Origin: Patiria pectinifera
Lineage: Eukaryota > Echinodermata > Asteroidea > Valvatida > Asterinidae
Length of the DNA stretch: 64,000 bases
Assembly (NCBI GenBank): GCA_029964075.1
Contig: CM057149.1
Location: forward strand, 32,322,900 to 32,386,899
Direction of reading: 5' to 3'
The translations under genes were made by a program, and so were the position numbers. Under the pieces are notes generated by a model. It saw only the letters and a list, made by a program, of their open reading frames with translations. It had not been told where the DNA came from and ran no database searches. Positions 6,906-63,169 of this stretch are shown here, one piece after another (position 1 is the first letter of the stretch; each line of letters opens with the position of its first letter).

Positions 6906-7040
6906 TCATTTTGGTGTGTGGACCTTTTTCATCATGCTAGTTCCGACAAAACCACTGTAATATATTGCAGAGTCTTCGTTTCTGAATAAAGGGTGATGGT
7001 TAAATGATTCGTAATCAATTGTTATCATTATTTTATTTCT
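6906..7040 (-). CDS. Gene 1 exon 7: cytoplasmic tail
   Basis: 44 residues plus stop. Both I-x-Y-x-x-F motifs are kept (TIDYESF, AIYYSGF). It differs from gene 2 at only a few residues (N-E-D-S against N-E-N-S, SMMKK against SRIKK). The tail is more conserved than the V domain, which suggests selection on signalling. Confidence 0.65.
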   Translation of the reverse strand, partial: RNKIMITIDYESFNHHPLFRNEDSAIYYSGFVGTSMMKKVHTPK

Positions 7041-10000
7041 CTCCACAATAAAATGATTTAACAATATAACATGTATAAAAACCGTTATAACAGGAGGTGA
7101 TGTGGAATGTGGAGAAGGCAATACTGAGAAGGACAATAATTTTCCTATACTAGAAGGTTCAGTCTGCCAATTAATACAGCGATAACACACGAATAAAGCA
7201 ATGGAGGAGGAATAAAAACCATCAAACAAATTGATTTAAAAGGATGAATGGTAAAAAACAACCAATAATATTGTAACTAAACCGCAAATATCTCATACAG
7301 AATGATTTTTTGACGTGTATAACACCATCGCTAACTTTACAACGAAACAAAATTGTTACCACGTAAGTGTGCTGGGATATAAGACTGTCTAGAGATTCTA
7401 AAAAATACTAGAAAATATTTGCGTACCTCGATGTCATTCTTTTGTTCAGGCATCCTCTGAAATGACAATAAAAATGTATACGACAATACTACATGTTAGT
7501 GCATAAACAATATAACACAAAACAAATTAGCTCCTTTAATGATTTTGAGTTCCTTAGTCTGCCTTTTTTTCATGTTATCTTTATTAGATTTTTTTTAACA
7601 CATGTAATCGGGGGCCATAATCAACAAGATAGAGACAGAAGATCTGGAGCATCATTCCTGTATCATAAATGCCTTGTTTAAACTCAAAATATGACGTCAT
7701 TGCCAACTTTTGTGGATCAAGGTTAAACCTAAGTTGTACTGAAAGCACTCAGCCAATCGATCAACGTTTAGTGCACATATCAGGCGCATGTGCATGTTAA
7801 AACACCATTTGTTTGTATTTGCTACAAAATATTTACTTTTTTATTGATTAACTGAGAGATGTCCATGAATTTAAAAGAAACGTATTTTGTGTGATCAGGC
7901 GCCTGCCCCAATTTACCTTGCAGGCAGCAATAACCAAACCAACGATGACAGCAAATAACAGGCACAAAACAACTGCAAGCCCAATCACGGCATTTCGAAA
8001 GCTACCTGGAGCGTCCTTAACAGCAGATTCAGAGCCCAACTCAGATATCAATGTTGCAGCTGTGGGAGGTTTAACCGATGTCATATCTGTAAATTTTATT
8101 TGAAATTCGTTAAAAAAGCACCAAAGTAAATATATTCATTAATTTGAATGACTTTATATTTGATGCTCTGTCGTAAAAAAAATCTTGCCCTAAAGGGTAT
8201 TTTGATAGTTCTTATGAAGACATGTATTTAAAGTTAAGCAAGGCGAACGATACTTGCTTGCTCGTTGCTCTTGAAGTTCAAGAAAGGTCCAATGGAAACT
8301 TATTAATCTTGCATGGCATCAATTATGCAGCATTTGCAAGGGTAACACAATACTGGTTTTTTTTTTTAACCAACAAAGCATTCACAGTGCATACCATCGC
8401 ACATCGCACACAAAAGCGTTTTAACCAAAAATATTGTGGCGAAAATTACTATAGCGGCAGAGTCTAAAGAGGGCGCGCTAGCGGCTGCGGGCCCCTATAT
8501 AAGAGGCCGCGGGGCAGTTGCTAGAAGAGACGTACTTGTAGACGCAGACGGAGACACAGCCCTCATAAGAGCTCACGCTATTACGCGCGTTGACGGCGTG
8601 CTGGGTGGTGCGGTGGAGTCAGGCTGGCATAAGGAGGCACGGAGTCCGCGGAGGCTACAGGAGGCAGAGCGACATACAGCGATCTGCCGATTGTAACGTG
8701 ATGGAGCCGGAAGGGCGCGCTCATCTACCCGCTGCCTCGAGGAAGGATCGCGACTGGAAACGGTGGAGGGCGGGAGAGTGGAGGCGCACAGGAACGCTAG
8801 AGGCGTACGGTTCTTACCCGGGATTCAGAGGCTATCCCCAGCCAGGCATCGCCGTGCTGCCCAGCACTGCCTTACCGTAGCGGCTAATGCGAGGCTACCC
8901 ATAGAGATAATTGAGAGGCTCAGAGACCAATCACTTATTAGAGGCTAATTTAACGAGAGGTCCATCATATGACATGATTTGGTGTAAATAAATCAATCAG
9001 TAATTGAGGTCATTGACTGTTGTGTACTTAATTGTTTGTCCTTGTCCATCTTGGAGGTTGAGGGGCGTGGGTGAGTGCTGCTACGCGTATAGGGCGGTAT
9101 ATTTCCATCCAAACGGGCCTGCATTCCCGGCTGCTGGGGTATTGATCCTAAGCTAGGTTTTTTTGGGTAAAGGGACTACGGATCGGGTCACAGATATTCC
9201 CGCCACAATATTGATAAACAGAACAATGAATCGAAATCTCAAACAAAGGCAACAGCTACAATGCTACATGTATTTCCATGAATATTATTTCAAATTGCAT
9301 CGTACATTATAACCACTTTACATACACTGTATGTAATATATTACAAGACAAAAGGTAAAAGGGAATGAAAATTTTGAACGGATTGATTTTACTTGTCAGG
9401 AAGAAAAATAGGGGTAATTGAGGTAGGGAATTATTTGGGAAAAAATGTATTAATTTGTTTTAAGAAAAACAAATTACGTCATTTGCAGCAGTGCTTTTTT
9501 GGCAAATAATGTTGGAGGATGGAGTCGAGGCGTGCAAAGCAGGGCCAGCAGAAATTCTGCCAAACAAATTTGAAGAATTAGACGAGAATAATAAATGTCC
9601 ATGCTCACGTGGTTTCTGAGAGGTACCATGAGCTGTGGTGACAGTCACCGTCACGTGGCTACCATTCCTGGCGCCCAGAGCCTCCCCGTATGCTTGACAT
9701 CTGTACATCGTGTCCTTATTACTCGCTATAACTGGGATTGATGCTAAAGTGATGGAGGTGTTCACAGAATACTCACCTACAATTAACACATACCAAAAAG
9801 CAGATCTGTTATTATTTTGCTTGCTGAAATAAAAGCCAATTGCAATGAGCTTGCCAGCATGATGTCATATTATGTTCGTCTGGGCTGGATTTATCTTTGG
9901 AAATCATTAAATGAGAATCCTTCCCTTAAAAGCAGCTCCGTGAAGTAGGACCTATAATCTGGAAATCATGCTTCCCTGTAGACAAATGAAAAGACATCTT

Positions 10001-12413
10001 TAAGCCTGTGACCTAATTAAAATTCACCTCGTAGGCCTACATAATGATTCAATTCAAACAAATGTTACTTTCCAATATTACGGTGAGCTGGGGCAGCCTC
10101 AACTTCGTCCCCAGTGTGTCGGGCAGAACACGCCCACCACTACCTGCTCTCTCACCCTGGTATTGGATAATGTGCATGTGCAAGATTTTTGAACACTTTT
10201 GCAAATGAGGAATAGTAGTCTGAACAGCATCAATTCGTCGCGCCGTGTGTTATGAAAACAAGATTTTGTTTAAAGTAAAAATGAATGTTACAATCTGGCC
10301 CTCCAACATGCAGTATCACATATTAATAATGAGCAAACTTGAAAGGAGAGGAGTATTTTTGAGAAGGCGTTCACGTTAAAATAACAATGATCGTGAAAAC
10401 ACGTAATGCACGTTAGAAATATCAACACCAACTACGCGATATAAATCTATTATTAGCAAATTGCGGTATACAGGATACAGGAAGAACATTTCATATCCAG
10501 GGTTTACTATTGGAAACAAGGTTGGAAATAAAGTAAGCACTGGGGACGAGGTTGGGGCACCCTGAGATTGAGAAACTCTATACGTACTCGGATGTACGTT
10601 GAACCTGTCGCTGATGAGTTGTGTGTCGCCGTCACAATACTCAAGCAGCCATCGGAGAGCCACGGCAGGCTTGGCATCCCGTACGATGCATGTCAGCATT
10701 GGTTCCTTGATGTCGTTCGGTAACTCTGCCTCGCACGCAGTCTCAGAGATACGTTCAGTGCATTGAGTTACGTCGGGAAACGGATCACCGGGGGATACTA
10801 CAAAACAATTAAAATGTTCGACAAAATTAGGATACGAGGCTTCAAAGTGTCATCATGTCATCATAATCTTTCACAACATGGTGACCTTCCTTCATATACC
10901 AACATAGATCCATCAACCACCACTGAGATATAATATTAAAATGTTATTAACTCAAAACTTTGTATAAATTGATGTACCGTAAAAAATGTTGAACAATTTT
11001 CATTGACAGGAAGTTGCTAAGTCCTTGACAATAAGTTCTAGTCATTTACCATTCAATTTCAAAGTTTGGTCGCCACATTTGAACACAGTGTCAAGAATAT
11101 TTGTCATTACAGATCAAATTCGTCTAAGCTGTTGCCGAATGCCAGTATTCAGAGATTAAATTCGTCTTATGCCCACCAATTTAAAACTGTTATGTTAAGT
11201 AAATTAGTCTGGTGTCGTTATTTACCATGTTCCTTGTGTCCGAGGGCAGAAACCAGGACAAGATACAAATTATCGAATCCTTTAAACATTATGCCATGGA
11301 CTACATCCAAGTGGCTGTAAATTTGGGCAATAAACGAGTAAAAAAAATATACGACCATGCTTGTAAAAACAAATGTCGATGATCCGTATTTTCCTTTGTT
11401 ACATTGTACCTATAATAAGTCTATAACATTTTTTTTAAAGAAAATCGATTGAAAAGAAACTTACAATACGCCTATATAATAACAGGGAAATAACAGGAAT
11501 AAAAAACAGCGGGGAAAATGTCCTCATCTGCGACCTTTATGTGTCCTACAGAGGACGTCATAGTGAACTGTTACGAAATTGAACAAATATATCAAAATTG
11601 TGTGGCAAAAGACGAATTTGATTTCTGAATAAGACTGTTCAGCGTAGACGAGACGAAATCGAATATTTCGTGCCGAAAATGGGTGTTAATGGATTGAATT
11701 CGATTGAACAACAATTGAAATTGTATGAGCAAAGACGAAATTATACATTGGAAGTGCACTAAATCAATGTTGACGGAAAAATAGAATATTAAAAACGGTC
11801 AATTCGAATCCTAAATGTTTTTAAATAGCCGAAAAACCTCTATTAAAAGGAAAATCTTGAGCCAAGCACAGGCACAACTTTTGGGTGTCGTAATTTTCCC
11901 CGCCTTTTTCAGAGAATGTCTCAAACTTTGGACTTCTAAACTCCAACTGGGCTGCAGGCGTAACAAAACAAACTGATCATTTCCATACATGTTTCCGCCC
12001 GACCTATTACCAAGTCTAACTGCAACATCGTTTTGTCCAGCTCATGAATAATGTAATTTACTCATCACCTTACTCACCTTTGACACTCATAGTCACGTGT
12101 CCATCAACTAACCCTCTTAACCTAGGTTTGACCCTACAGTAGTAGGTCCCTTCATCTGAGTCGGTGACGTTCTCAATAACCAGAGAGAAATGTCTGTTGA
12201 TGTCATACACGCCCTCCGGGATGCCGTTTTGTGGAGCGACGTTCCCTAGAAAGTAGGAGATCAAGATGTTTTCATCTTGTACTCGGGGGAAGAACCAGTA
12301 CATGACTTCGATCTGATCCAGCGGGATTCGTCCGGATGCGACGAGAGGGCAGGACAGGATGCCAGGGTTGCCTCGCTCCAGGAAGGTGGTTGCTTGGATG
12401 AAGCTAACAAAAA
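6906..12413 (-). CDS. Ig-superfamily V+C membrane receptor, gene 1 (leader exon not found)
   Basis: Paralogue of the gene at 49.6-54.5 kb. Exons on the minus strand: 12413-12078 V domain, 10797-10588 and 9776-9627 C-type domain, 8086-7917 transmembrane, 7456-7427 micro-exon, 7040-6906 tail. Every exon except V has the same length as in gene 2, and all phases match, so the gene looks intact from exon 2 onward. I could not find the leader exon. The sequence just upstream, from 12485, is a repeat array and MITEs, so the leader may lie further up or be lost. A solo LTR sits in the intron between the second C exon and the transmembrane exon. Likely a single-pass surface receptor; ligand unknown. 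Confidence 0.78.
7427..7456 (-). CDS. Gene 1 exon 6: 30-base micro-exon
   Basis: RMPEQKNDIE, phase 0-0, acceptor TTTCAG and donor GAG|GTACGC. The peptide is identical to the gene 2 exon. Confidence 0.75.
7917..8086 (-). CDS. Gene 1 exon 5: stalk and transmembrane segment
   Basis: 170 bases, phase 1 to 0, with acceptor TTTACAG and donor AAG|GTAAAT. A Thr/Ser-containing stalk is followed by a hydrophobic helix from AVIGLAVVLC to GLVIAAC, ending in Lys. Confidence 0.82.
8435..9207. mobile_element. Solo LTR, probably gypsy-type, in an intron of gene 1
   Basis: A 773-base insert absent from gene 2, with ends TGTGGCG and CGCCACA and a 4-base target duplication ATAT (8431-8434 and 9208-9211). A TATA-like box (CTATATAAGAG) and AATAAA are where an LTR would have them, read on the plus strand. 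It inserted after the duplication, so it is young relative to the duplicons. Confidence 0.65.
9627..9776 (-). CDS. Gene 1 exon 4: second half of C-type Ig domain
   Basis: 150 bases, phase 1 to 1, with acceptor TTGTAG and donor G|GTACC. It includes NTS and NGS glycosylation sites and D-T-M-Y-R-C-Q-A with the closing Cys. Confidence 0.82.
10087..10560. mobile_element. Inverted-repeat insert (MITE-like) between C exons of gene 1
   Basis: The left end 10087-10116 (TGGGGCAGCCTC... TCCCCAGTG) is inverted at 10538-10560 (CACTGGGGACGAGGTTGGGG). It is absent from gene 2 and there is no coding potential. Target duplication not resolved. Confidence 0.5.
10588..10797 (-). CDS. Gene 1 exon 3: first half of C-type Ig domain
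   Basis: 210 bases, phase 1 to 1, with acceptor TTTTGTAG and donor A|GTACGT. It contains MLTCIVRD and ALRWLLEYC. It has one Cys more than gene 2 (LEYC against LEYS), which may leave an unpaired thiol or allow another disulphide. Confidence 0.82.
12078..12413 (-). CDS. Gene 1 exon 2: end of leader plus Ig V-type domain
   Basis: 336 bases, phase 1 to 1. The acceptor TTCCTGAAG follows a long pyrimidine tract; the donor is G|GTGAGT. It encodes FVSFIQATTFLERG, then ILSC, MYWFF and TDSDEGTYYC. It differs from gene 2 by many amino-acid changes in the middle of the domain (for example QDENILI against RDEKLLI), while the framework around the Cys residues is unchanged. Confidence 0.82.
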
Positions 12414-23165: not shown

Positions 23166-26100
23166 GGCCAAAAAAAGTCTCCGGTTCCTGGTATGGAGCT
23201 TGCCCGAAAAGTGGTGCGGCGACGCGGCTTTTTTGTTTTACCTGATTTTTTTTTGCTTCAAATGTCGGCTGATGACTGCAAATAGTGCCCGACTAAACTT
23301 AGTGCAAATATATGGGAGTCCAGAGAGGCCACATGAAGCTTGTTATAACTATGATGAAACAGAATAGTGACTAAAAACACAGATTTTTAATGTATAATAG
23401 TTTATTTCGTTGGCATTTTCGAGATATTGATCTATCTCATACGAGAAACAAAAGGGCGGAAAAGTGCAAAAAAAAACCCAGCTATCCCATATAGAGCCTC
23501 CCTATCGAATGTTTCCGTTCGATTCGATATTTTAAGTAAAACAAATAAAAATGCGTTGGCCAAGATAAAGGTTGCCATAAATTAAGCCACCGTGATACAA
23601 ACTTACCCCCGAAATTTAGACTTGCCTTCTCCCGCCCGAACAAATCCTGATTCAAGGATGTTTTGCATACAAGCATGAATGCATAGCTATAGCTAGCTGT
23701 GCAGAGACAGAACTTGGACTGAAGAGCGTGAGTTGTGTGGTGGATGATGCGAGCGTCTGCAGCCTTTCTGCCTCGTGTTCCGTTTGTAGGGCAGGCCAAC
23801 CAAACATGAACAATTATCCTTAGTTAATAATTTGCCGAAATGTCAACAGTTGGCGTGGGCCAGTGAAGATTCTATGATAATACAGCTCACGCAACTAACT
23901 CGACAGCCACAGACTGATTATATGGGAAAATATTGTAGCGAAAACCACTTTAGTTTGTTGTCTAGTACTATTGATAACTGTGCCAGCTGAAAAGTCATTC
24001 ACTAGACATGCCAGAGCGCATATGTAAATTAGGCTTCAACTAGCTGGCCAAGCCAATTGTTCCTTTTTAACCTGGCTCTCTATTCAATTGACATATTTAA
24101 CAATTCATGGATTAGCTTGGGCTAACCAAAACCAGGTCACTGTATTAAGGCAGGAGCGTTGTAATTATTTGCATAGATTACCTACATGTACCTTGCATTC
24201 CAGTTCAGTGGAAAAGTACTGGGCTAGCAGTGCCAGTATAAAAAGCCTGAGCACATGTTTGCCCACTGAGGATTTAGGACTGGGTGTGGTAGGAGAGACA
24301 TGTCTCTCTGATTTTATTTTACTTTTGGACCTGCCAAGACGGCTCAAATTGTAAGCGAAGATCAGTTGCCAACCTATTGGTGTCGTACGTAAGTTTTCAT
24401 GCCCCGCTGGCGAAGCCAAAGGGGCATACTGTTTTCGCCTTGTCCTTCCGTGGGTGGGGGGTGGGTGTGTGTGTGGGGGGAGGGTGTGTGGGTGGGTGTG
24501 TGTGTGTGTGTGTCCGGACAAACCTTGTCAGCGCGATAACTTGAGAAATACTTAACATATGAACTTCAAATTTGGTTTGCGTATTGTTCTTGGTAATCCT
24601 AAGAAGCCTATTGCATTTTGGGCCGAAAGGTCAAGGGTCAAGGTCACAGTGGCTAAAACAAAAGAAATTTTGTCAGCGCGATAACTTGAGAAATACTTTA
24701 CATATGAACTTCAATTTTGGTTTGTGAATTGTTCTTGGTAATCCTAAGAAGCCTTTTGAATTTGGGGCCGAAAGGTCAAGGGTCAAGGTCCAGTGGCTGA
24801 AACAATAGACATTTTGTCAGCGCGATAACTTGAGATTTACTTTACATATGAACTTCAAATTTGGTTTTTAGATTTTCCTTGGCAATCATAAGAAGCCTAT
24901 TGCATTTGGGGCCAAATGGTCAAGGGTCAAGGTCACAGTGGCTAAAACAAAAGAAATTTTGTCAGCGTAATAACTTGAGAAATACTTTACATGTGAACTT
25001 CAAATTTGGTTTGTGGATCGTTCTTGGTAATCCAAATAGGCCTATCGCATTGGGGTCGAAAGGTCAAGGGTCAAGGTCACAGTGGCTAAAACAATAGAAA
25101 TCTTGTATTTATTCTGAGGTCATAGTGATTAGGGATTAATTCATATCAAACCTAAAGAAGACACTAATGCTGTCAATGAACGTTCCATGTGACCAAGGTA
25201 CATGTAAGTTGATGTTAAAAGAGTGGTGTTATGTCATGGGAACAGTCACGGTTGCGGGGCATTTGTATTTGTAAACACACCTGACTTGTTCTTTTACATG
25301 CAGTAATGTGCCCCGTGCCCCATTTCAGCCGTGCTCGTTCATTTTATTATATTTTAGGATTGTATTAAATTGTGATAGTCAAATTTGCTAGACTGTAATT
25401 ATAATTGTTTGCCTGATTTGCTTTCTGTGCATGTGGCTTTCCTGTTTTGGTGGGTGCTTTTTGGCAGGGTTGGTTGCTTATCGGCGAGGGGTTGATTCGT
25501 CCCCCTTGGATAGCAGCCTGGTTGCTTATCGGCAAGGGGTTGATTCGTCCCCCTTGGATAGCAATCTAGGAAATATTTATTAAAGGGCGATTTTCCATTT
25601 TAGAGGCCAATATGTACAGGAAGTACAAGTAAACTTGTTTGTTATTCTTTTTCCTTGTTTTGGCCTTGTGTGTAACTACCAATTTGAAATGGAACTAGAA
25701 CACATTTTTGGTGGGCGTGGTTGAGCTGTTCGCCCAACATTCAAACTATATGTCCTTACAATTGTCCGTCATGTACTTCACGTTATTCAATTATTCTTAA
25801 TTTATTTCTAATCTCTGAATCCATACTGCCAAATTTGATGTAAATAATAATAATAATTTAAGTATTTTTTAATTAAAGGCCACAAGAAAATTATCAGTGG
25901 CTAACAGAATTGAAACGTCTTGTTCCTTCTAAAATTCTTTTGTATTGCTTTCACTTAACTGGCGGATCCCTGAGTAGGTTTCGTTACAATATCAGCAATT
26001 TGGAGAAGACCAGGTTTGTCCAGACCCAAAGTCTTAGTTTAGGCCAATAGGACACAACACTCTGTTACTCAGTCAGTCAGTCAATCAGTGACTCAGTATT

Positions 26101-27251
26101 TTCTTCACTCGCACATCGCAAACAATTCTAGACAATATCGATAATGGAAACGGTAATTTCTAAATTCAGTTTAGTTTCTTTTTATTTCGTCTGACATGTG
26201 AAACCACATGTACATTGTTGCCAATTTACAAACAGCCATTGTGAACAACTTGCTCTTTATTGTATATGTTTCGACTTTTCGATCGGGGCACTATAGAAAA
26301 TTTCCTTAAACTTGCTGTTTAGCATCACAAAAGAACTGGGTTTTTTAACAAGACATTGAACAAACATTCCACCGAAGTGTACTTTATGGAAATTTTTAGT
26401 TTACAACTGTCGAACTGCGATCCGACAGTAAATTGCTGTGTGGTGTTTTTTTCTGTTGCGATATGGGCGCAAAAGCAAGACAAAATAAAAGCGATATACT
26501 TAACTTGTACATTAAATGTTATTTTCGTTTGACTAAGTTTCTTGGCCTAAACTAAATAATAACTCTAAGAATAGTATGCAGTAAAAATCAGAAATCACCA
26601 GGCCAACTTTTTTAATTAGTGGTATTTACGTTTTCGATACACTACATTGGCAGCGATTAAAAAGTTTTCTCCCTTTTCAGGTATTTTGTAAGTTAAATTT
26701 TTTTTGCGCAACGAATTTTCAACTTAAATGTTTTTATATAAAATAATAATATAAAAAAACACTAATTCGTTGTTTTTTTTTGAGCGTCTGCGATCCTCTG
26801 AAAGAGGCATAAGACTAACGAAATTTAATGTACAAGTTAAGTAATTTGTTCTTATTGCATGAACGAGGAAACCCTAAATATTTGTATCTTTCGTTTAAAT
26901 TGGAACGGGCATAAGCATGAAAGCCCTGTCACTATTTTACACGAATTCCAATTGAAGATTTCCACAACTGCAACAACAAAATGTGACATTTGATAGGAGA
27001 ACCTGTACTATTAAAATATTAAGTAAGTAACTAATTACAGAAGCTATAAAACGCAGTTGAACAACCTGGAGTTTTAAATGTAATATTTTACTAGACCTTA
27101 AACCTGTCCCTATAACCTCCATTCAGTTCCTTTTGCAGTCTGATTTCTTTGTTCCGCGTTCCACTACCGTACGGATAACTACCAGACGAGTGATCGATGC
27201 TGTACTTTGAACCTTTACACGCTGAACTTGTATATCCGAGTTTCTCTGTGA
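23166..27251. repeat. 4.1-kb tandem repeat, unit 1
   Basis: Starts GGCCAAAAAAAGTCTCCGGTT. Nearly identical to the units at 27252 and 31345. Each has a T run after GCGACGCGGC, an 0.86-kb inner element, a 48-base direct repeat around TTGCTTATCGGC, and an AT-rich second half. A minus-strand frame of 105 codons (23799-23482) and a plus-strand frame near 24088-24354 are repeated with the units, but neither resembles a known protein. Confidence 0.92.
24399..25262. mobile_element. Subrepeat-bearing element in unit 1 (ATGCCCCGC ends)
   Basis: Ends ATGCCCCGC and GCGGGGCAT are inverted. After GT-rich sequence come four units of about 135 bases, each starting TTGTCAGCGCGATAACTTGAG and ending AAGGTCAAGGGTCAAGGTCAC. 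Similar non-coding elements with tandem cores are common in marine invertebrates; some of these have been linked to Helitrons (pearl-like). That link is inference here. Confidence 0.6.
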
Positions 27252-30200
27252 GGCCAAAACAAAAAGTCTCCGGTCTGTGGTATAAAGCTTGCCCAAAAAG
27301 TGGTGCGGCGACGCGGCTTTTTTTTTTTTTTACCTGATTTTTTTTGCTTCAAATGTTGGCTGATGACTGCAAATAGTGCCCGACTAAACTTAGTGCAAAT
27401 ATATGGGAGTCCAGAGAGGCCACATGAAGCTTGTTATAACTATGATGAAACAGAATAGTGACTAAAAACACAGATTTTTAATGTATAATAGTTTATTTCG
27501 TTGGCATTTTCGAGATATTGATCTATCTCATACGAGAAACAAAAGGGCGGAAAAGTGCAAAAAAAAACCCAGCTATCCCATATAGAGCCTCCCTATCGAA
27601 TGTTTCCGTTCGATTCGATATTTTAAGTAAAACAAATAAAAATGCGTTGGCCAAGATAAAGGTTGCCATAAATTAAGCCACCGTGATACAAACTTACCCC
27701 CGAAATTTAGACTTGCCTTCTCCCGCCCGAACAAATCCTGATTCAAGGATGTTTTGCATACAAGCATGAATGCATAGCTATAGCTAGCTGTGCAGAGACA
27801 GAACTTGGACTGAAGAGCGTGAGTTGTGTGGTGGATGATGCGAGCGTCTGCAGCCTTTCTGCCTCGTGTTCCGTTTGTAGGGCAGGCCAACCAAACATGA
27901 ACAATTATCCTTAGTTAATAATTTGCCGAAATGTCAACAGTTGGCGTGGGCCAGTGAAGATTCTATGATAATACAGCTCACGCAAACTAACTCGACAGCC
28001 ACAGACTGATTATATGGGAAAATATTGTAGCGAAAACCACTTTAGTTTGTTGTCTAGTACTATTGATAACTGTGCCAGCTGAAAAGTCATTCACTAGACA
28101 TGCCAGAGCGCATATGTAAATTAGAGCTTCAACTAGCTGGCCAAGCCAATTGTTCCTTTTTAACCTGGCTCTCTATTCAATTGACATATTTAACAATTCA
28201 TGGATTAGCTTGGGCTAACCAAAACCAGGTCACTGTATTAAGGCAGGAGCGTTGTAATTATTTGCATAGATTACCTACATGTACCTTGCATTCCAGTTCA
28301 GTGGAAAAGTACTGGGCTAGCAGTGCCAGTATAAAAAGCCTGAGCACATGTTTGCCCACTGAGGATTTAGGACTGGGTGTGGTAGGAGAGACATGTCTCT
28401 CTGATTTTATTTTACTTTTGGACCTGTCAAGACGGCTCAAATTGTAAGCGAAGATCAGTTGCCAACCTATTGGTGTCGTACGTAAGTTTTCATGCCCCGC
28501 GGCGAAGCCAAAGGGGCATACTGTTTTCGCCTTGTCCTTCCGTGGGTGGGGGGGGGGGGTGTGTGTGTGGGGGGAGGGTGGGTGTGTGGGTGGGTGTGTG
28601 TGTGTGTGTGTCCGGACAAACCTTGTCAGCGCGATAACTTGAGAAATACTTAACATATGAACTTCAAATTTGGTTTGCGTATTGTTCTTGGTAATCCTAA
28701 GAAGCCTATTGCATTTTGGGCCGAAAGGTCAAGGGTCAAGGTCACAGTGGCTAAAACAAAAGAAATTTTGTCAGCGCGATAACTTGAGAAATACTTTACA
28801 TATGAACTTCAATTTTGGTTTGTGAATTGTTCTTGGTAATCCTAAGAAGCCTTTTGAATTTGGGGCCGAAAGGTCAAGGGTCAAGGTGCAGTGGCTGAAA
28901 CAATAGACATTTTGTCAGCGCGATAACTTGAGATTTACTTTACATATGAACTTCAAATTTGGTTTTTAGATTTTCCTTGGCAATCATAAGAAGCCTATTG
29001 CATTTGGGGCCAAATGGTCAAGGGTCAAGGTCACAGTGGCTAAAACAAAAGAAATTTGTCAGCGTAATAACTTGAGAAATACTTTACATGTGAACTTCAA
29101 ATTTGGTTTGTGGATCGTTCTTGGTAATCCAAATAGGCCTATCGCATTGGGGTCGAAAGGTCAAGGGTCAAGGTCACAGTGGCTAAAACAATAGAAATCT
29201 TGTATTTATTCTGAGGTCATAGTGATTAGGGATTAATTCATATCAAACCTAAAGAAGACACTAATGCTGTCAATGAACGTTCCATGTGACCAAGGTACAT
29301 GTAAGTTGATGTTAAAAGAGTGGTGTTATGTCATGGGAACAGTCACGGTTGCGGGGCATTTGTATTTGTAAACACACCTGACTTGTTCTTTTACATGCAG
29401 TAATGTGCCCCGTGCCCCATTTCAGCCGTGCTCGTTCATTTTATTATATTTTAGGAATGTATTAAATTGTGATAGTCAAATTTGCTAGACTGTAATTATA
29501 ATTGTTTGCCTGATTTGCTTTCTGTGCATGTGGCTTTCCTGTTTTGGTGGGTGCTTTTTGGCAGGGTTGGTTGCTTATCGGCGAGGGGTTGATTCGTCCC
29601 CCTTGGATAGCAGCCTGGTTGCTTATCGGCAAGGGGTTGATTCGTCCCCCTTGGATAGCAATCTAGGAAATATTTATTAAAGGGCGATTTTCCATTTTAG
29701 AGGCCAATATGTACAGGAAGTACAAGTAAACTTGTTTGTTATTCTTTTTCCTTGTTTTGGCCTTGTGTGTAACTACCAATTTGAAATGGAACTAGAACAC
29801 ATTTTTGGTGGGCGTGGTTGAGCTGTTCGCCCAACATTCAAACTATATGTCCTTACAATTGTCCGTCATGTACTTCACGTTATTCAATTATTCTTAATTT
29901 ATTTCTAATCTCTGAATCCATACTGCCAAATTTGATGTAAATAATAATAATAATTTAAGTATTTTTTAATTAAAGGCCACAAGAAAATTATCAGTGGCTA
30001 ACAGAATTGAAACGTCTTGTTCCTTCTAAAATTCTTTTGTATTGCTTTCACTTAACTGGCGGATCCCTGAGTAGGTTTCGTTACAATATCAGCAATTTGG
30101 AGAAGACCAGGTTTGTCCAGACCCAAAGTCTTAGTTTAGGCCAATAGGACACAACACTCTGTTACTCAGTCAGTCAGTCAATCAGTGACTCAGTATTTTC

Positions 30201-31344
30201 TTCACTCGCACATCGCAAACAATTCTAGACAATATCGATAATGGAAACGGTAATTTCTAAATTCAGTTTAGTTTCTTTTTATTTCGTCTGACATGTGAAA
30301 CCACATGTACATTGTTGCCAATTTACAAACAGCCATTGTGAACAACTTGCTCTTTATTGTATATGTTTCGACTTTTCGATCGGGGCACTATAGAAAATTT
30401 CCTTAAACTTGCTGTTTAGCATCACAAAAGAACTGGGTTTTTTAACAAGACATTGAACAAACATTCCACCGAAGTGTACTTTATGGAAATTTTTAGTTTA
30501 CAACTGTCGAACTGCGATCCGACAGTAAATTGCTGTGTGGTGTTTTTTTCTGTTGCGATATGGGCGCAAAAGCAAGACAAAATAAAAGCGATATACTTAA
30601 CTTGTACATTAAATGTTATTTTCGTTTGACTAAGTTTCTTGGCCTAAACTAAATAATAACTCTAAGAATAGTATGCAGTAAAAATCAGAAATCACCAGGC
30701 CAACTTTTTTAATTAGTGGTATTTACGTTTTCGATACACTACATTGGCAGCGATTAAAAAGTTTTCTCCCTTTTCAGGTATTTTGTAAGTTAAATTTTTT
30801 TGCGCAACGAATTTTCAACTTAAATGTTTTTATATAAAATAATAATATAAAAAACACTAATTCGTTGTTTTTTTGAGCGTCTGCGATCCTCTGAAAGAGG
30901 CATAAGACTAACGAAATTTAATGTACAAGTTAAGTAATTTGTTCTTATTGCATGAACGAGGAAACCCTAAATATTTGTATCTTTCGTTTAAATTGGAACG
31001 GGCATAAGCATGAAAGCCCTGTCACTATTTTACACGAATTCCAATTGAAGATTTCCACAACTGCAACAACAAAATGTGACATTTGATAGGAGAACCTGTA
31101 CTATTAAAATATTAAGTAAGTAACTAATTACAGAAGCTATAAAACGCAGTTGAACAACCTGGAGTTTTAAATGTAATATTTTACTAGACCTTAAACCTGT
31201 CCCTATAACCTCCATTCAGTTCCTTTTGCAGTCTGATTTCTTTGTTCCGCGTTCCACTACCGTACGGATAACTACCAGACGAGTGATCGATGCTGTACTT
31301 TGAACCTTTACACGCTGAACTTGTATATCCGAGTTTCTCTGTGA
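27252..31344. repeat. 4.1-kb tandem repeat, unit 2
   Basis: Head-to-tail copy, 4093 bases. It differs from unit 1 by rare substitutions and by length changes in homopolymers. It keeps both copies of the 48-base direct repeat. Confidence 0.92.
28492..29359. mobile_element. Subrepeat-bearing element in unit 2
   Basis: Same element as at 24399-25262, copied with the larger unit. Confidence 0.6.
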
Positions 31345-32577
31345 GGCCAAAACAAAAAGTCTCCGGTCTGTGGTATAAAGCTTGCCCAAAAAGTGGTGCG
31401 GCGACGCGGCTTTTTTTTTTTTTTACCTGATTTTTTTTGCTTCAAATGTTGGCTGATGACTGCAAATAGTGCCCGACTAAACTTAGTGCAAATATATGGG
31501 AGTCCAGAGAGGCCACATGAAGCTTGTTATAACTATGATGAAACAGAATAGTGACTAAAAACACAGATTTTTAATGTATAATAGTTTATTTCGTTGGCAT
31601 TTTCGAGATATTGATCTATCTCATACGAGAAACAAAAGGGCGGAAAAGTGCAAAAACCCAGCTATCCCATATAGAGCCTCCTATCGAATGTTTCCGTTCG
31701 ATTCGATATTTTAAGTAAAACAAATGAAAATGCGTTGGCCAAGATAAAGGTTGCCATAAATTAAGCCACCGTGATACAAACTTACCCCGAAATTTAGACT
31801 TGCCTTCTCCCGCCCGAACAAATCCTGATTCAAGGATGTTTTGCATACAAGCATGAATGCATAGCTATAGCTAGCTGTGCAGAGACAGAACTTGGACTGA
31901 AGAGCGTGAGTTGTGTGGTGGATGATGCGAGCGTCTGCAGCCTTTCTGCCTCGTGTTCCGTTTGTAGGGCAGGCCAACCAAACATGAACAATTATCCTTA
32001 GTTAATAATTTGCCGAAATGTCAACAGTTGGCGTGGGCCAGTGAAGATTCTATGATAATACAGCTCACGCAAACTAACTCGACAGCCACAGACTGATTAT
32101 ATGGGAAAATATTGTAGCGAAAACCACTTTAGTTTGTTGTCTAGTACTATTGATAACTGTGCCAGCTGAAAAGTCATTCACTAGACATGCCAGAGCGCAT
32201 ATGTAAATTAGAGCTTCAACTAGCTGGCCAAGCCAATTGTTCCTTTTTAACCTGGCTCTCTATTCAATTGACATATTTAACAATTCATGGATTAGCTTGG
32301 GCTAACCAAAACCAGGTCACTGTATTAAGGCAGGAGCGTTGTAATTATTTGCATAGATTACCTACATGTACCTTGCATTCCAGTTCAGTGGAAAAGTACT
32401 GGGCTAGCAGTGCCAGTATAAAAAGCCTGAGCACATGTTTGCCCACTGAGGATTTAGGACTGGTGTGGTAGGAGAGACATGTCTCTCTGATTTTATTTTA
32501 CTTTTGGACCTGTCAAGACGGCTCAAATTGTAAGCGAAGATCAGTTGCCAACCTATTGGTGTCGTACGTAAGTTTTC

Positions 32578-33742
32578 ATGCCCCGCGGCGAAGCCAAAGG
32601 GGCATACTGTTTTCGCCTTGTCCTTCCGTGGGTGGGTGCGTGGGTATGTGGGTGGGTGTGGGTGAGTTTGTGTTACATACCCTATGTGGACTTGTGAACA
32701 AAAGAGGTCCACATAATGCAGGTTGTGTTAACCTTATGTGGACTAAGCCGTGTCCACATAAGGTTTTGCCCTTTCTGGAAAACAGGTTTAGAGGCATTTT
32801 TGGGTTAGGTTTATCTGTAGCAGAATGAAGAGAAACACTATAGGGAATCATAGAAAAAAAATTGGGTTAAAAGAGTTTTCACAGTTTAAGTAAAGTTATT
32901 TTTTGTACCGAGTTTTCTTAACTACACGAAAACAAAGCAATGTCCACACAAGGTATGTAACACACGTCTGGGTGTGGGTGTGTGTGTGTGTGTGTCCGGA
33001 CAAATCTTGTCAGCGCGATAACTTGAGAAATACTTAACATATGAACTTCAAATTTGGTTTGCGTATTGTTCTTGGTAATCCTAAGAAGCCTATTGCATTT
33101 TGGGCCGAAAGGTCAAGGGTCAAGGTCACAGTGGCTAAAACAAAAGAAATTTTGTCAGCGCGATAACTTGAGAAATACTTTACATATGAACTTCAATTTT
33201 GGTTTGTGAATTGTTCTTGGTAATCCTAAGAAGCCTTTTGAATTTGGGGCCGAAAGGTCAAGGGTCAAGGTGCAGTGGCTGAAACAATAGACATTTTGTC
33301 AGCGCGATAACTTGAGATTTACTTTACATATGAACTTCAAATTTGGTTTTTAGATTTTCCTTGGCAATCATAAGAAGCCTATTGCATTTGGGGCCAAATG
33401 GTCAAGGGTCAAGGTCACAGTGGCTAAAACAAAAGAAATTTGTCAGCGTAATAACTTGAGAAATACTTTACATGTGAACTTCAAATTTGGTTTGTGGATC
33501 GTTCTTGGTAATCCAAATAGGCCTATCGCATTGGGGTCGAAAGGTCAAGGGTCAAGGTCACAGTGGCTAAAACAATAGAAATCTTGTATTTATTCTGAGG
33601 TCATAGTGATTAGGATTAATTCATATCAAACCTAAAGAAGACACTAATGCTGTCAATGAACGTTCCATGTGACCAAGGTACATGTAAGTTGATGTTAAAA
33701 GAGTGGTGTTATGTCATGGGAACAGTCACGGTTGCGGGGCAT
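32578..33742. mobile_element. Subrepeat-bearing element in unit 3, with MITE insert
   Basis: Same as in units 1 and 2, but its GT-rich part is interrupted by the MITE at 32669-32964. Confidence 0.6.
32669..32964. mobile_element. 296-base MITE, TGTGTTACATACC ends
   Basis: TGTGTTACATACC at the left and GGTATGTAACACA at the right are perfect inverses. The similarity continues inward as TRTGTGGAC. Several internal GTCCACATAAGG repeats are present. It is absent from units 1 and 2, so it inserted after the unit arose. The target duplication is hidden in the GT-rich site. Confidence 0.75.
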
Positions 33743-35682: not shown

Positions 35683-35832
35683 GGCCAAAACAAAAAGTCT
35701 CCGGTCTGTGGTATCAAGCTTGCCCAAAAAGTGGTGCGGCGACGCGGCTTTTTTTTTTTTTTACCTGATTTTTTTTGCTTCAAATGTTGGCTGATGACTG
35801 CAAATGGTGCCCGACTAAACTTAGTGCAAATC
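35683..35832. repeat. 4.1-kb tandem repeat, start of a fourth unit
   Basis: Matches the first 150 bases of the unit, then stops at AGTGCAAAT. Confidence 0.85.
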
Positions 35833-36374
35833 CTGAGAGGCACCATAAAGCTTATTCTCGACCATAGCCCAATCTAAAACACGTTAAAATTGTGCAGCAG
35901 CAGGATTCCCGTCAAACCAGTGAGTTTGGCGGTTTTGAGACATCATCTTTCAATGAAAAAAAAAACCCTTATCATTTTGCCAACGCGCATGGCTACGGCG
36001 ACGCGCGCGCATACCAGAAACCGAAGACTTTTTTGGGGGACTTACATAACCTATTTTCTGTGCACGAAATCCGGCCCGGGACATTCACTCGGGCCGGCTA
36101 GTCAAAACAATATTTCATGAGTCGGAGACAAACAGCTCAGCACAGCTATTTTTGAGTTTGCAGACGGCCACGAGGAGCATTGAATCCACTATTGCCCCTG
36201 TACGACGGATAATAAACGTGCATGGGGCGTAGCCAGACCGCTCCGGGTTACTTGGACAAGCGGAGAAGTGTTTTAGTTTTTATGAAATACAGACTCAAAG
36301 GAGGGAACGCACATGTCATGCATATATAATAAGGTAAAGGACGGATCACGAATCCCATTTTTAAGCTTTGGAAG

Positions 36375-49551: not shown

Positions 49552-49686
49552 TCATTTTGGTGTGTGGACTTTTTTTATCCTGCTAGTTCCGACAAAACCA
49601 CTGTAATATATTGCAGAGTTTTCGTTTCTGAATAACGGGTGATGGTTAAATGATTCGTAATCAATTGTTATCATTATTTTATTTCT
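49552..49686 (-). CDS. Gene 2 exon 7: cytoplasmic tail
   Basis: 135 bases including the stop, phase 0, with acceptor TTGTGGAG. It encodes 44 residues starting RNKIMITIDYESF and ending KKVHTPK. T-I-D-Y-E-S-F and A-I-Y-Y-S-G-F resemble ITIM/ITAM-type docking motifs with Phe at +3. An alternative upstream acceptor in the same frame (after N-W-Q) would add about 45 residues. The short form is preferred because the added part does not look protein-like. Confidence 0.65.
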   Translation of the reverse strand, partial: RNKIMITIDYESFNHHPLFRNENSAIYYSGFVGTSRIKKVHTPK

Positions 49687-52600
49687 CTCCACAATAAAAT
49701 GATTAAAAAATATAACATGCATAAAAACCGTTAAAACAGGAGGTGATGTGAAATGTGGAGAAGGCAATACTGAGAAGGACAATAATTTTCCTATACTAGA
49801 AGGTTCAGTCTGCCAATTAATACAACGATAACACACGAATAAAGCAATGGAGGAGGAATAAAAACCATCAAACAAATTGATTCAAAAGGATGAATGCTAA
49901 AAAACAACCAATAATATTGTAACTAAACCGCAAATATCTCATACAGAATGATTTTTTGACGTGTATAACACCATCACTGACTTTACAACGAAACAAAATT
50001 GTTACCACGTAAGTGTGCTGGTATATAAGACTGTCTAGAGATTCTAAAAAATACTAGAAAATATTTGCGTACCTCGATGTCATTCTTTTGTTCAGGCATC
50101 CTCTGAAATGACAATGAAAATTATACGACAAAACTACATGTTAGTGCATAAACAATATAACACAAAACAAATTAGCTCCTTTAATGATTTTGAGTTCCTT
50201 AGTCTGCCTTTTTTTATGTTATCTTAGGTATTTTAACACATGTAATCGGCGGCCATAATCAACAAGATAGAGACAGAAGATCTGAAGCATCATTCCTGTA
50301 TCATACATGCCTTGTTTAAACTCAAAACATGACGTCATTGCCAACTTTTGTGATTCAAGGTTAAACCTTAGTTGTACTGAAAGCACTTAGACAATCAACC
50401 AACGTTTAGTGCACATATCAGGCGCATGTGCATGTTAAAACACCATTTGTTCGTATTTGCTACAACATATTTACTTTTTTTATTGATTAACTGAGAGTGT
50501 CCATGAATTTAAAAGAAACGTATTTTTTGTGATCAGGCCCCTGCCCTGCCCCAATTTACCTTGCAGGCAGCAATAATCAAACCAACGATAACAGCCAATG
50601 ACAGGCACAAAACAACTGTGAGCCCCATCACAGCATTCTGAGAGCTATCTTGAACGTCCTTAACAGCAGATTTAAAGCCCAACCTAGGTATCAATCTTGC
50701 AGCTGCGGGAGGTTGAACTGATGTCATATCTGCAAATATTATTTGAAATTCGTTTAAAAATCACCATTGCAAATATATTTATTAATTGTAATGACTTACT
50801 TAGTTTTTGATGTTCTGACGTAAAAAAAGTCTTGCTCTAAAGGGTATTTTGATAGTTCTTATGAAGACATGTATTTTAATTAAAGCAAGGCGAACGATAC
50901 TTGCTTGCTCATTGCTCTTGAAGTTCAAGAAACTTATTAATTCAGCATGACATCAATTATGCAGCATTTGCAAGGGTAACAAAATACTGTTTTTTTTTAA
51001 TTTACAAAGCATTTACAGTGCATACCATTCATTTCAATGGGATTTGTTTCAGAAAAGCCATCGCACACAAAAGCATTTTAACCAAAAATATTGATAAACA
51101 GAACAATGAATCGAAATCTCAAACAAAGGCAACAGCTACAATGCTACATGTATTTCCATGAATATTATTTCAAATCGCATCGTACATTATAAGCACTATA
51201 CATACACTGTATGTAATGGATTACAAAACAAAAGTTAATAGGGAAAGACAATTTTGAACGGATTGATTTTGCTTGTCAGGGAGAAAAATAGGGGTAATTT
51301 AGGTAAGGAAATATTAGGGAAAATGTATTAATTTATTTTAAGGTAAACAAAGTATGTCATTTGCAGCAGTAATTTTTTGGCAGATGGAGTCGAGGCGTGC
51401 AAAGCAGGGACAGCAGAAATTCTGCTAGACAAATTTGAGGAATTAGACGAGAACAATGAGTATCCATGCTCACATGGTTTCTGAGAGGTACGATGAGCTG
51501 CGGTGACAGTCACCGTCACGTGACTACCATTCCTGGCGCCCAGAGCCTCCCCGTGTGCTTGACATCTGTACATCGTGTCCACGTCACTCATTATAATTGG
51601 GATTGATGCTAAGGTGGTGAATGTGTTCACCGAATACTCACCTAAAACGCAACACAAAAAGCAGAGCTGTTATTAAGATAAGAAGCCAATTGCACAGCCG
51701 CACCGGAGTGGTTTTTAAACGCGGGAGGGGGCATCACAAAAACATGTTGACACTTTGTTTGACCGGACACTTAGCCTCCGTTAAATCAAATAGTGAAGGG
51801 GGGGGGGGGGGCTGGTACCATCTTCCAAAAAAGGGGCCGCTCTTCAAAATGCCCCCAGCCCCCCCCCCCCCCCGGTTCCGCCGCCCCTACAATTGCATGA
51901 ATTAACTTGCTAAGCATGGAAAGTTTTACCTACAGATACGGGTGTATGTATACACGTAATCCCAAAAGATGTCCCTCTTGAGGGTATATAGAATTCTCAT
52001 TGTCAAACTTGTAACGGAGCAAAATGGACTTGGGTTACATTAATGGCCTTTGTTTCAAAACCACTGAACCCGAATCCAATCATCAATTTTATTTTTGAAC
52101 TTGAATTTTTTTCTTCATAAAAAACGAGCATTCCTTCCCCCCTCCAGACGGACTTTGGTTTTAGGACACTCTGTATAGATGGCGCATGCCACAATGTATT
52201 TGCACACAGCAATAACCAAAAGTTCGCAGCGAATGACAGGCAAACAGCAATCATGGCATTTTGGGAGCTATCTGGAGCATACGTGGAAATGTTTTGCACA
52301 CGGAAAAGCGTGAGAAACTGTTTCTCTTAACTTACACAGCTCTTTGAAAAGCGGACCCTATCCTTGAAATCATACTTTCATAATTATGTAGTAAATGTTC
52401 AACATATATTTTAGCCTGCGACATACTAAAAATTACCTCGTGCAAAGATGTTCCAAATCAGAGACATGATACAAGAATGTAGAGCAGGCTTATGTTATAC
52501 ATTCCCACGTTACGGGGGGGGGGGGGGGGACACCCTGAGATTCAGTTATTAAACCCGATACTTACTCGATTGTACGGTGAACCTGTCGCTGATGAGTTGT

Positions 52601-54524
52601 GTGTCACCGTCACTATACTCCAGCAGCCATCGGAGAGCCACGGCAGGCTTGGTATCCCGTACGATGCAGGTCAACATTGGTTTCTTGATGTCTTTCGGTA
52701 ACTCTGCCTCGCACGCAGTCTCAGAGATACGTTCAGTGCATTGAGTCACGTCAGGAAACGGCTCTTTGGGAGATACTACACAACATTTCAACACAAATAC
52801 CATTGGCACAAATTTGAATCACTATTATCTGAATTGAAATACATTGAAAGGAAATCCCAAGCCAAGCTTTTTCATGAGATATGTCAAACGTGAATTGGCT
52901 TCTAAATCCAGCGGTAAATTTAAATTAATCCTTTAAATAATTCCGCCCTTCAGAAAATTGGTTGAAAACTGAGTTGGACACGCATGAATACAATTAATTA
53001 CTAATCACCAACCACCTCACCTTTGACACGCTTAGTCACGTGATCATCAACTACCATTTTCAATTTTGGTTTGAGCCTACAGTAGTAGGTCCCTTCATCT
53101 GAGTCGGTGACGTTCTCAATAACCAGAGAGAAGTTTCCGTTGATGTCATACACGCCCACCGGGATGCCGTTTTGTGGAGCGACCTTCCCTAGGAAGTAGG
53201 AGATCAAGAGCTTTTCATCTCGTACTCGGGGGAAGTACCAGTACATGGCGTCGATCTGATCCAGCGGGATTCGTCCGGATGCGACGGGAGGGCAGGATAG
53301 GATTCCAGGGTTGCCTCGCTCCAGGAAGATGGTTCCATCCTCGTTCTTACTTGCGTGGATGCCAGTAGCCACCACAAAAACAACTATAATGGGATGATGT
53401 ACCAATGCATCTTATTAGAAACTATACGTTATCAAGATCTAGAGGATAATAATAATAATAATAAAATTGCATTTATTATGCGCATATACCATAAAATGTT
53501 CAAATGCGCATTACAAAATTTGAACAGTAGCTAAAATATAAAAAATATTAAAAATACACATTCGAATTAAACATTAATCTTAAATGTAAAAAACCACTAG
53601 ATATTTTAGAAAACACTGTTATAGCAATGAAACTTAAAATTACAAAAACAAGACCTACAATTAAAATAGATAATAGTAAAACCTTATACGAATGCCTTTG
53701 TAAAAGAAAAGTCTTAAGCTTAGTCTAAAAATCTGTTAGAGACTGAACAGACAGAATTTCAAGCTGGGAGCGGCTTTTGCAAATGCACGATCCCCCATAG
53801 TCTTTTGCATTCTCCCAGATGGATAATCAAAAAGCAAGCGCCCATTGGATCGCAGGGAATACTTGGAATGGACCCTAACTTTCAACATATCTATAATGTA
53901 TCTGGGAGCAAGATCATGAAGAGCATTGAAGGTCAACAGAAGGATTTTAAAGTGTATGCGGGATTGTATAGGCAACCAATGTAACTGATAAAGTAGAGGA
54001 GTAACATGGTTCAATGATGGTTTTGCCACAAACAAGCCTTGCTGCAGCATTCTGAACCCGTTGAAGCATTACTAATTGTGAATTTGGTAAGCCATAATAT
54101 TGACCGTTGCAATAATCAAGGCGACTGGTTATGAAAGCATGCACCAAAGTAATCAATGGATCACGTTGGTGGACAATTAACAGAACAAATGTATAAAGCA
54201 AAAGAGTAATTGTTGCATATTACACTTATGGTTGTTGTCATTTCTAGTACAACTCGTAAGGCATTTTTGGCAATGTAATTTCACCCCAAAAGCCCCCCAT
54301 TTGATAGACCTCTTATAAGTCGCAATAATCTCCTTCTGCGCCTCCATTCGAAACAAAAATTACCTAACTCTTTTCGAAAATTGACAAAAGCTCAAATTTC
54401 GAGTACAAAACAAAATTGGCGCATGTTCACATTCGTTCCTGACTGCAATGCGCAATGAATGCCATTTACCTAGAACTATCCACAGGTCTGCATTGTGTGC
54501 CTGGACTAGCATGTTGAAAAGCAT
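49552..54524 (-). CDS. Ig-superfamily V+C membrane receptor, gene 2 (complete model, 7 exons)
   Basis: Predicted type I cell-surface receptor. Exons on the minus strand: 54524-54470 leader, 53383-53021 V domain, 52775-52566 and 51641-51492 C-type domain, 50729-50560 transmembrane, 50102-50073 micro-exon, 49686-49552 tail with stop. Lengths 55, 363, 210, 150, 170, 30 and 135 sum to 1113 bases, which is 370 codons plus stop. All junctions are GT-AG, and phases run 1-1-1-1-0-0, as usual for Ig modules. The V domain has the Cys, Trp and D-x-x-x-x-Y-Y-C pattern of V-sets. The tail carries two I-x-Y-x-x-F motifs. The ligand is unknown, and the role is inferred from architecture: an innate or allorecognition receptor. 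A LINE sits in intron 1 and a relic transmembrane exon in the intron between the two C exons. The exon plan matches gene 1 at 6.9-12.4 kb. Confidence 0.82.
50073..50102 (-). CDS. Gene 2 exon 6: 30-base juxtamembrane micro-exon
   Basis: Ten codons, RMPEQKNDIE, phase 0 at both ends, with acceptor TTCAG and donor GAG|GTACGC. It matches exactly in length and peptide in gene 1. Being phase 0-0, it could be skipped without a frame change. Confidence 0.75.
50560..50729 (-). CDS. Gene 2 exon 5: stalk and transmembrane segment
   Basis: 170 bases, phase 1 to 0, with acceptor TTTGCAG and donor AAG|GTAAAT. A stalk of about 30 residues is followed by roughly 23 hydrophobic residues, from AVMGLTVVLC to GLIIAAC, and then Lys. 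This is a standard single-pass anchor with a positive stop-transfer residue. Confidence 0.82.
51492..51641 (-). CDS. Gene 2 exon 4: second half of C-type Ig domain
   Basis: 150 bases, phase 1 to 1, with acceptor TTTTAG and donor C|GTACC. It begins E-Y-S-V-N-T and includes D-T-M-Y-R-C-Q-A, the second domain Cys, and an N-G-S glycosylation site. The intron before it is 924 bases, mostly unlike gene 1, and holds the relic transmembrane exon. Confidence 0.82.
52199..52285 (-). pseudogene. Relic of an extra transmembrane exon inside gene 2
   Basis: The minus strand reads D-S-S-Q-N-A-M-I-A-V and then a hydrophobic run, closely matching the gene 2 transmembrane exon (D-S-S-Q-N-A-V-M-G-L). It lies between the two C-domain exons, where a transmembrane exon has no place, and it lacks the clean acceptor and donor of the real exons. 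It is best read as a leftover of another receptor copy after unequal exchange. Gene 1 has nothing similar in this intron. Confidence 0.6.
52566..52775 (-). CDS. Gene 2 exon 3: first half of C-type Ig domain
   Basis: 210 bases, phase 1 to 1, with acceptor TTGTGTAG and donor A|GTAAG. It encodes two Cys (V-T-Q-C and E-T-A-C) followed by MLTCIVRD and the Trp in ALRWLLE. This is the C-strand half of a C1/C2-like Ig domain, completed by the next exon. The same length and phases are kept in gene 1. Confidence 0.82.
53021..53383 (-). CDS. Gene 2 exon 2: end of leader plus Ig V-type domain
   Basis: 363 bases, phase 1 to 1, with acceptor TATAG at 53384-53386 and donor G|GTGAGG. After the leader end the domain shows ILSC (first Cys), MYWYF (Trp), and FSLVIENVTDSDEGTYYC (second Cys, the V-set D-x-G-x-Y-x-C core). 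NVT is a likely N-glycosylation site. The exon is 27 bases longer than its gene 1 counterpart, all by whole codons near the domain start. There is no clear J-like G-x-G after the second Cys, so this is V-like without a rearranging J element. Confidence 0.85.
53446..54205 (-). mobile_element. LINE 3' end (L2/CR1-like) in intron 1 of gene 2
   Basis: The minus strand encodes the end of a reverse-transcriptase ORF: LVHAFITSRLDYCN, VQNAAARLVCGK, LHWLPIQSRIHFKI, then LRSNGRLLFDY and GDRAFAKAAPSL, ending at a stop near 53736. There is a frame change near 54020. It is 5' truncated and ends in an (ATT)n tail at 53464-53446, typical of L2-type LINEs. Absent from gene 1. Confidence 0.85.
54470..54524 (-). 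CDS. Gene 2 exon 1: leader (signal peptide, first half)
   Basis: The 55-base exon starts at an ATG at 54524 and ends G|GTAAAT, phase 1. It encodes MLFNMLVQAHNADLWIVL plus one base. Joined in phase to the next exon it gives a hydrophobic stretch ending in V-A-T-G-I-H-A, which suits signal-peptidase cleavage after Ala. A second in-frame ATG lies at 54512. The phase-1 split inside the leader is common in Ig receptor genes. Seen: ATG, donor and phase match. Inferred: that this is the true leader; no transcript is available. Confidence 0.65.
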
Positions 54525-63161: not shown

Positions 63162-63169
63162 AAAACACT

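Follow-up and report, generated by a model that had tools for sequence, protein, structure and literature searches.

The asteroid echinoderm Patiria pectinifera carries, in a 64,000-nucleotide stretch of DNA (the window), a minus-strand locus, gene 1, whose exons appear to encode an immunoglobulin (Ig) receptor ending in a tail with two tyrosine motifs. An earlier note had taken it for a member of an invertebrate immune-type receptor family whose ITIM/ITAM-like tail has Phe in place of the usual +3 residue. We asked what gene 1 encodes, what it is related to, and whether its tail can be read as a signaling tail.

Exon anatomy of gene 1

The V exon of gene 1 scored above the cutoff for the Pfam V-set family (E = 7.8e-9; 36.1 bits against a gathering score of 26). 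The next two exons, C1 and C2, jointly hold the Cys-Trp-YxC core of one Ig domain, with the B-strand Cys (LTCIV) and the Trp (RWLL) followed by the F-strand YRC. Their joined translation fell just under the gathering score of C2-set_2 (19.3 versus 21 bits; E = 0.0012).

The junctions linking the V, C1, C2, and transmembrane (TM) exons are all phase 1, and those linking the TM exon, the micro-exon, and the tail are phase 0. The V, C1, C2, and TM frames are intact and have GT/AG splice sites, and the TM stretch contains no charged residues. The C2 exon ends at 9609, at a donor conserved across paralogues (AAACCAC/GTGAGC, the slash marking the junction); the donor CATG/GTACC was rejected because it is not conserved among them. 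The earlier note had described a V exon, two exons sharing one C-type domain, and a TM exon and micro-exon in consistent phase, and all of these were borne out (Table 1). The V, C1, C2, and TM exons are beyond chance, and the micro-exon probably is as well.

The V exon is entered in phase 1 and begins with leader-like residues (FVSFIQA), so a signal-peptide/start exon is expected upstream; no candidate emerged from a crude scan that covered about 4.1 kb ahead of genes 1 and 2. A Pfam scan of the TM and tail piece of gene 1 returned a best E value of 0.043. An AlphaFold model of the V exon, made from a two-sequence input, was uninformative (mean pLDDT, 38.3).

A tandem paralogue, gene 2, has the same plan. 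Between the two genes, from about 23480 to 35900, the same open frames repeat every ~4.1 kb in what is apparently a tandem triplication (for example, LRIIVHVWLACPTNGTRGRK at 23482, 27573, and 31711). The window also contains a long, low-complexity open repeat of SPGRITIS-like units on the minus strand (62493-63176), probably a minisatellite.

Table 1. Features of genes 1 and 2 and of their NACHT-bearing relatives (window positions unless a contig is named)
Feature	Position	Strand	Phase, basis, or remark
Gene 1 V exon (leader-like end and V-set domain)	12078..12413	-	Phase 1 in, phase 1 out; Pfam, splice sites, paralogue donors
Gene 1 C1 exon, carrying the B-strand Cys and core Trp of the C2-like Ig domain (first half)	10588..10797	-	Phase 1/1
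Gene 1 C2 exon, carrying the F-strand YRC and NGS glycosylation sequon of the C2-like Ig domain (second half) and a linker	9609..9776	-	Phase 1/1
Gene 1 stalk and TM exon	7917..8086	-	Phase 1 in, phase 0 out
Gene 1 micro-exon RMPEQKNDIE, 30 nt	7427..7456	-	Phase 0/0
Gene 1 putative, doubtful tail exon, RNKIMITIDYESF...AIYYSGF...stop	6906..7040	-	Open frame in five copies
Inserted dispersed repeat, ~250 bp, ACAAT at flanks	7018..7269	-	Genome matches and insert-free copies
Insertion of ~770 bp in gene 1 C2-TM intron, partly G+C-rich	8437..9206	-	Gene 2 matches contiguous across it
Gene 2, tandem paralogue	49552..53383	-	Boundaries set by hand
Gene 2 V exon	53383-53021	-	Boundaries set by hand
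Gene 2 C1 exon	52775-52566	-	Boundaries set by hand
Gene 2 C2 exon	51641-51474	-	Boundaries set by hand
Gene 2 TM exon	50729-50560	-	Boundaries set by hand
Gene 2 micro-exon	50102-50073	-	Boundaries set by hand
Gene 2 tail open frame	49686-49552	-	Boundaries set by hand
L097, V-C2-TM-NACHT, distant relative of gene 1	C3:22934500-22938700		NACHT by Pfam
L098, V-C2-TM-NACHT, distant relative of gene 1	C14:53690400-53694700		NACHT by six-frame protein match
L100/L101, V-C2-TM-NACHT, distant relatives of gene 1	C5:8091350-8095250		NACHT by six-frame protein match

A tandem family and its NACHT-bearing kin

The exons of gene 1 served as queries against the genome that the window comes from (1020 contigs, 613.5 Mb in all). 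With C1, 115 matches came back at E values up to 10, 30 of them below 1e-30. These 30 close copies are on contig C21 (29, at 14.2, 25.2-25.8, 32.2-32.9, and 34.7 Mb) and on C2 (one); the remaining 85 matches, at 29-61% identity, are mostly on C3. The V exon gave at least 110 matches at E values up to 5.1e-22 among the 150 scored of 259 candidates, distributed as 71 on C3, 28 on C21, and 11 elsewhere. The TM exon gave 29 matches at E values up to 10, on C21 and C2, and its donor is AAG/GT in 26 of 28 loci, with one GC donor and one unclear case. When 10 family ectodomains were scanned at E values up to 0.1, every one matched V-set and every one matched the CD80-like C2-set_2. Judged by these matches, gene 1 belongs to a large family of Ig-type membrane receptor genes that have two domains and have been copied in tandem.

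Of 28 loci searched for the micro-exon, 14 gave a match and 14 gave none. In a nonrandom sample of six copies, more distant and read completely, it keeps its AG and GT flanks at a length of 33 or 39 nt, although in one of them, L044, it holds an in-frame stop. Another copy, L079, has a stop in the TM exon and has lost the AG of the micro-exon. We propose that some of the distant copies could finish with a short V-T-L-x-S-L (VTLWSL-type) stop past the micro-exon. Separately, family members at C21:32222816-32244763 (minus strand) and C21:32803474-32825461 (plus strand) have equal match scores in mirrored arrangement, ~0.56 Mb apart; these blocks could come from the inverted duplication of a large segment or from a haplotype retained in the assembly.

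In two distant relatives, L097 and L098, the C2 exon is followed by three more exons: one for the TM segment, one that is juxtamembrane (VRKRRKKN...), and a long open one encoding NACHT, with splice sites from C2 to NACHT in consistent phase. The NACHT (NLR-type) domain of such relatives would lie inside the cell. The L097 NACHT exon matched Pfam NACHT at E = 3e-28 and is preceded by V, C1, and C2 matches of the family. The member at 8.09 Mb on C5 has V and C exons homologous to those of gene 1 (37% identity in alignment), followed by a TM exon and then an open exon that runs into a NACHT match.

A genome search with the L097 NACHT exon, in which 92 of 449 candidates were scored, showed the five best matches, and one at C5:2738227, to follow a family V match on their own strand, 3.4 to 6.4 kb downstream of it. 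Two of the V partners of these six are among the 110 strong V matches; the other four, all on C5, are weaker. Among the 92 scored, there was no NACHT within 20 kb downstream of the other 108 strong V matches, and none in the window, near gene 1, or in the C21 clusters. The ectodomain of the gene 1 family is homologous to that of the V-C2-TM-NACHT genes in the same genome.

A receptor of similar plan is known from the sea cucumber Apostichopus japonicus. AjNLRC4 is described as a protein of the coelomocyte membrane with an Ig-like domain, an Ig domain, TM (two segments reported), and NACHT; it is reported to bind microbes, including Vibrio, via its Ig part, and its authors knew of no earlier membrane receptor in which Ig and NACHT domains are combined (PMC8699970). 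Compared with that description, gene 1 has the same order of Ig-like domain, Ig domain, and TM, with two Ig domains ahead of the membrane as in an AjNLRC4-type receptor, but AjNLRC4 has a NACHT part and two TM segments, whereas gene 1 has no scored NACHT match nearby. The counterpart of the NACHT part is found in gene 1's distant kin on C3, C14, and C5, a likeness by plan only. Another A. japonicus protein, AjNLR-new, shares the combination of Ig, TM, and NACHT with gene 1's wider kin but differs in that NACHT is reported outside the cell and the Ig domain inside (PMC13133943).

Coding constraint was estimated from the same copies. None of the 28 best-scoring V exons and none of the 30 best-scoring C1 exons has a stop (mean dS, 0.19 and 0.31, respectively); over all scored matches, stops were found in 4 of 150 V and 4 of 115 C1 exons. 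Pooled pN/pS was 0.56 for V, 0.29 for C1, and 0.51 for C2, the last from the 14 of 30 C1 loci that have a complete C2 exon. Within the V domain (26 of 28 copies, two identical copies having been dropped), pN/pS was 0.34-0.36 in the framework, 1.00 in C-C', 0.71 in FG, and 0.93 in the last columns, with no region above 1. The absence of stops from the best V and C1 exons, together with these ratios, marks the family ectodomains as constrained coding sequence, and their diversity peaks where Ig V domains often bind ligands.

Because V-domain pN/pS nowhere exceeds 1, these values leave room for an adhesion role. The family could be a V-C2 cell-adhesion or allorecognition family of CEACAM/nectin-like plan, tandem-diversified for cell-cell or self/non-self recognition and not for microbes. 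The moderate, localized V diversity would fit this, as would the CD80-like C2-set_2 match in all 10 members scanned, and CEA/CEACAM V domains came out best when the family profile was compared with sequences of solved structures. CEACAM- and CD80-type proteins, like gene 1, have a V-set domain followed by a C2-like domain; however, the C domain of gene 1 is split by a phase-1 intron, and the sequence similarity is generic, the solved V-domain matches extending to many other Ig proteins. With the NACHT-bearing kin favoring innate recognition, we regard an adhesion or allorecognition family as the less probable reading, though the strongest of the alternatives.

The tyrosine motifs and the inserted repeat

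Vertebrate Ig receptors with ITIMs or ITAMs combine an Ig ectodomain, a single TM segment, and tail tyrosines. The ITAM consensus is two YxxL/I elements with 6-8 residues between them, and the ITIM consensus is [SIVL]xYxx[ILV] in the tail. The gene 1 tail contains IDYESF and IYYSGF, with tyrosines 18 residues apart and 14 residues between YESF and YSGF. It departs from the ITAM consensus in having Phe at +3 and in its wide spacing, and from the ITIM consensus in having Phe at +3 in both motifs, in all five copies that have a tail. YESF and YSGF in the predicted tail would fit the pattern of YXX-phi, the endocytic motif of AP-2 cargo, and some SHP-1 SH2 specificities tolerate Phe at +3. Like the vertebrate receptors, lamprey NICIP is described with an Ig ectodomain, a single TM segment, and tail tyrosines (PMC5071834). 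Gene 1 shares these three features in its predicted frame and differs from both in its +3 Phe, its 18-residue spacing, and its doubtful tail exon.

Classic [ILVS]xYxx[ILV] motifs lie behind the TM segment in four of eight single-exon V-set receptors examined in the same genome: L001, L002, and L008 on C12 and L007 on C1 have one to three ITIM-consensus motifs each (e.g., LVYADL, INYASI, and LTYQSL). Leu, Ile, and Val at +3 are thus in use in this genome, in another receptor class. Further long-frame V-set matches were seen on C12, C6, C15, and C1.

The open tail frame exists only in gene 1, gene 2, and the copies at C21:32440403, 32222816, and 32825327, which excludes a tail conserved across the family. 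The ~250-bp repeat has 18 matches in the genome, five of them full, all in these tail-bearing copies, and 13 partial. Compared with the insert-bearing copies, L081 and L044 show a near-empty site and an ACAAT-type duplication. The repeat supplies the AG acceptor of the tail and the codons for RNKIMIT, and the Ile codon of the first motif straddles its edge. In gene 1 this acceptor, lying inside the inserted repeat, is weak. The copies at 32222816 and 32825327, whose tail and V protein sequences are identical, have AT in place of the acceptor AG, and no other in-phase AG keeps their frame open; a usable in-phase acceptor is therefore missing from two of the five tail-bearing copies. An acceptor farther upstream that would lengthen the tail exon (TEPSSIGK...) was rejected, since the extended frame is open in genes 1 and 2 only.

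Of 28 loci compared for the tail, five have it, 13 have no alignable motif region, and 10 are insert-free and alignable; none of these 10 has both motifs in one open frame. Older copies retain pieces of a tail-like frame (MDYIPL; LFRNEDSAKFYSGF), and in L083 a single open frame runs through the tail region, though it has lost the second Tyr. It is possible that an ancestral coding tail was lost later in the other copies.

Divergence of the tail was compared with that of two introns in the four distinct copies. Gene 1 and C21:32440403 have identical tails (0/135, versus 23/424 and 4/360 in the introns), and genes 1 and 2 differ at 5/135 tail positions versus 19/426 and 10/360 intron positions. 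Over all six pairs, the tail was more divergent than both introns in three, intermediate in two, and less divergent in one; the three all include the 32222816 copy (e.g., 8/135 versus 5/432 and 5/360). With the pattern so mixed, there is no clear constraint on the tail. All six anchors (I, Y, and F, twice) are retained in the three distinct tail protein sequences, which by a rough estimate is within chance. Two [ILV]xYxxF motifs within 40 amino acids (aa) occur in 4 of the 801 open stretches of at least 40 aa in the window, two being the tails of genes 1 and 2 and two unrelated; shuffles of the gene 1 tail alone gave two IxYxxF motifs in 2 of 100,000. Taken for a single exon, the motif pair is unusual; taken for a scan the size of the window it is not, and it is not clearly beyond chance.

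These results bear directly on the view that the paired I-x-Y-x-x-F motifs recruit SH2 proteins, with Phe in place of the usual +3 residue. Five open copies, six retained anchors, the identical tails of gene 1 and C21:32440403, and the acceptance of Phe by some SHP-1 SH2 specificities speak for it. Against these stand an acceptor derived from an insertion, a tail under no clear constraint, two of five copies lacking a usable acceptor, two unrelated stretches among the four in the window with such a pair, and the classic consensus in half of the other receptors examined, and we consider such a receptor unlikely. The earlier note was correct about the two motifs ~18 residues apart, but the exon holding them is doubtful, the spacing lies outside the ITAM range, and the ITIM/ITAM-like interpretation was not upheld, given a tail confined to the five repeat-insert copies. 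A recent insertion of a repeat is the probable origin of the tyrosine tail, for which a working signaling function is poorly supported.

It is similarly improbable that gene 1 is a decaying copy whose ectodomain is intact but whose 3' end was broken by insertions so that no stable membrane protein is made: it has two insertions (8437-9206 and about 7018-7269), and paralogues have stops in the TM exon (L079) or micro-exon (L044), but its own V, C1, C2, and TM frames are intact with GT/AG splice sites.

V-C2 receptors with and without NACHT

On balance, we favor gene 1 being a single-pass V-C2 receptor of a tandem family whose ectodomain has NACHT-bearing kin; it would be a short-tailed coreceptor, adhesion receptor, or decoy, with the tyrosine tail an exonized extension. 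What stands of the proposed immune-type family is an Ig V-C membrane receptor gene within a tandem multigene family. Its immune use is plausible because its distant kin have the V-C2-TM-NACHT plan of the Vibrio-binding AjNLRC4 and because V variation is highest in C-C' and FG. An immune role for gene 1 is likely, and we infer its surface expression, ligand, cell type, and short tail.

In the receptor system that we favor, the V domain, most variable in C-C' and FG, would act on immune cells, binding surface ligands of microbial or self origin, and the NACHT-bearing kin would signal via their NACHT part. Members without NACHT, including gene 1, would serve as short-tailed coreceptors, adhesion receptors, or decoys of the same recognition system. 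Insertion of the repeat in the ancestor of the five copies, followed by exonization, would have given a lineage-specific tyrosine tail, if it is spliced at all. Such a tail could act as a YxxF endocytic or SH2-docking signal, although a clear sign of selection is absent. A bolder and rather doubtful extension is a paired-receptor system built on membrane NLRs and not on ITAM adaptors, in which the few V-C2-TM-NACHT proteins signal, the NACHT-less V-C2 radiation supplies coreceptors and decoys, and one sub-branch has gained an exonized tyrosine tail.

We found no description of such a V-C2 expansion in the literature searched, a coverage in which subscription journals are mostly not included. 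The locus offers a worked example of how an "immunoreceptor tail" that is convincing in raw sequence can be traced to a repeat insertion. V-C2 ectodomains of this homologous type stand together with NACHT at six sites, whereas 30 close and many distant copies have no scored NACHT nearby (92 scored of 449 candidates). Since homologous ectodomains are present both with and without NACHT, the joining and parting of recognition and signaling modules should be traceable within one genome.
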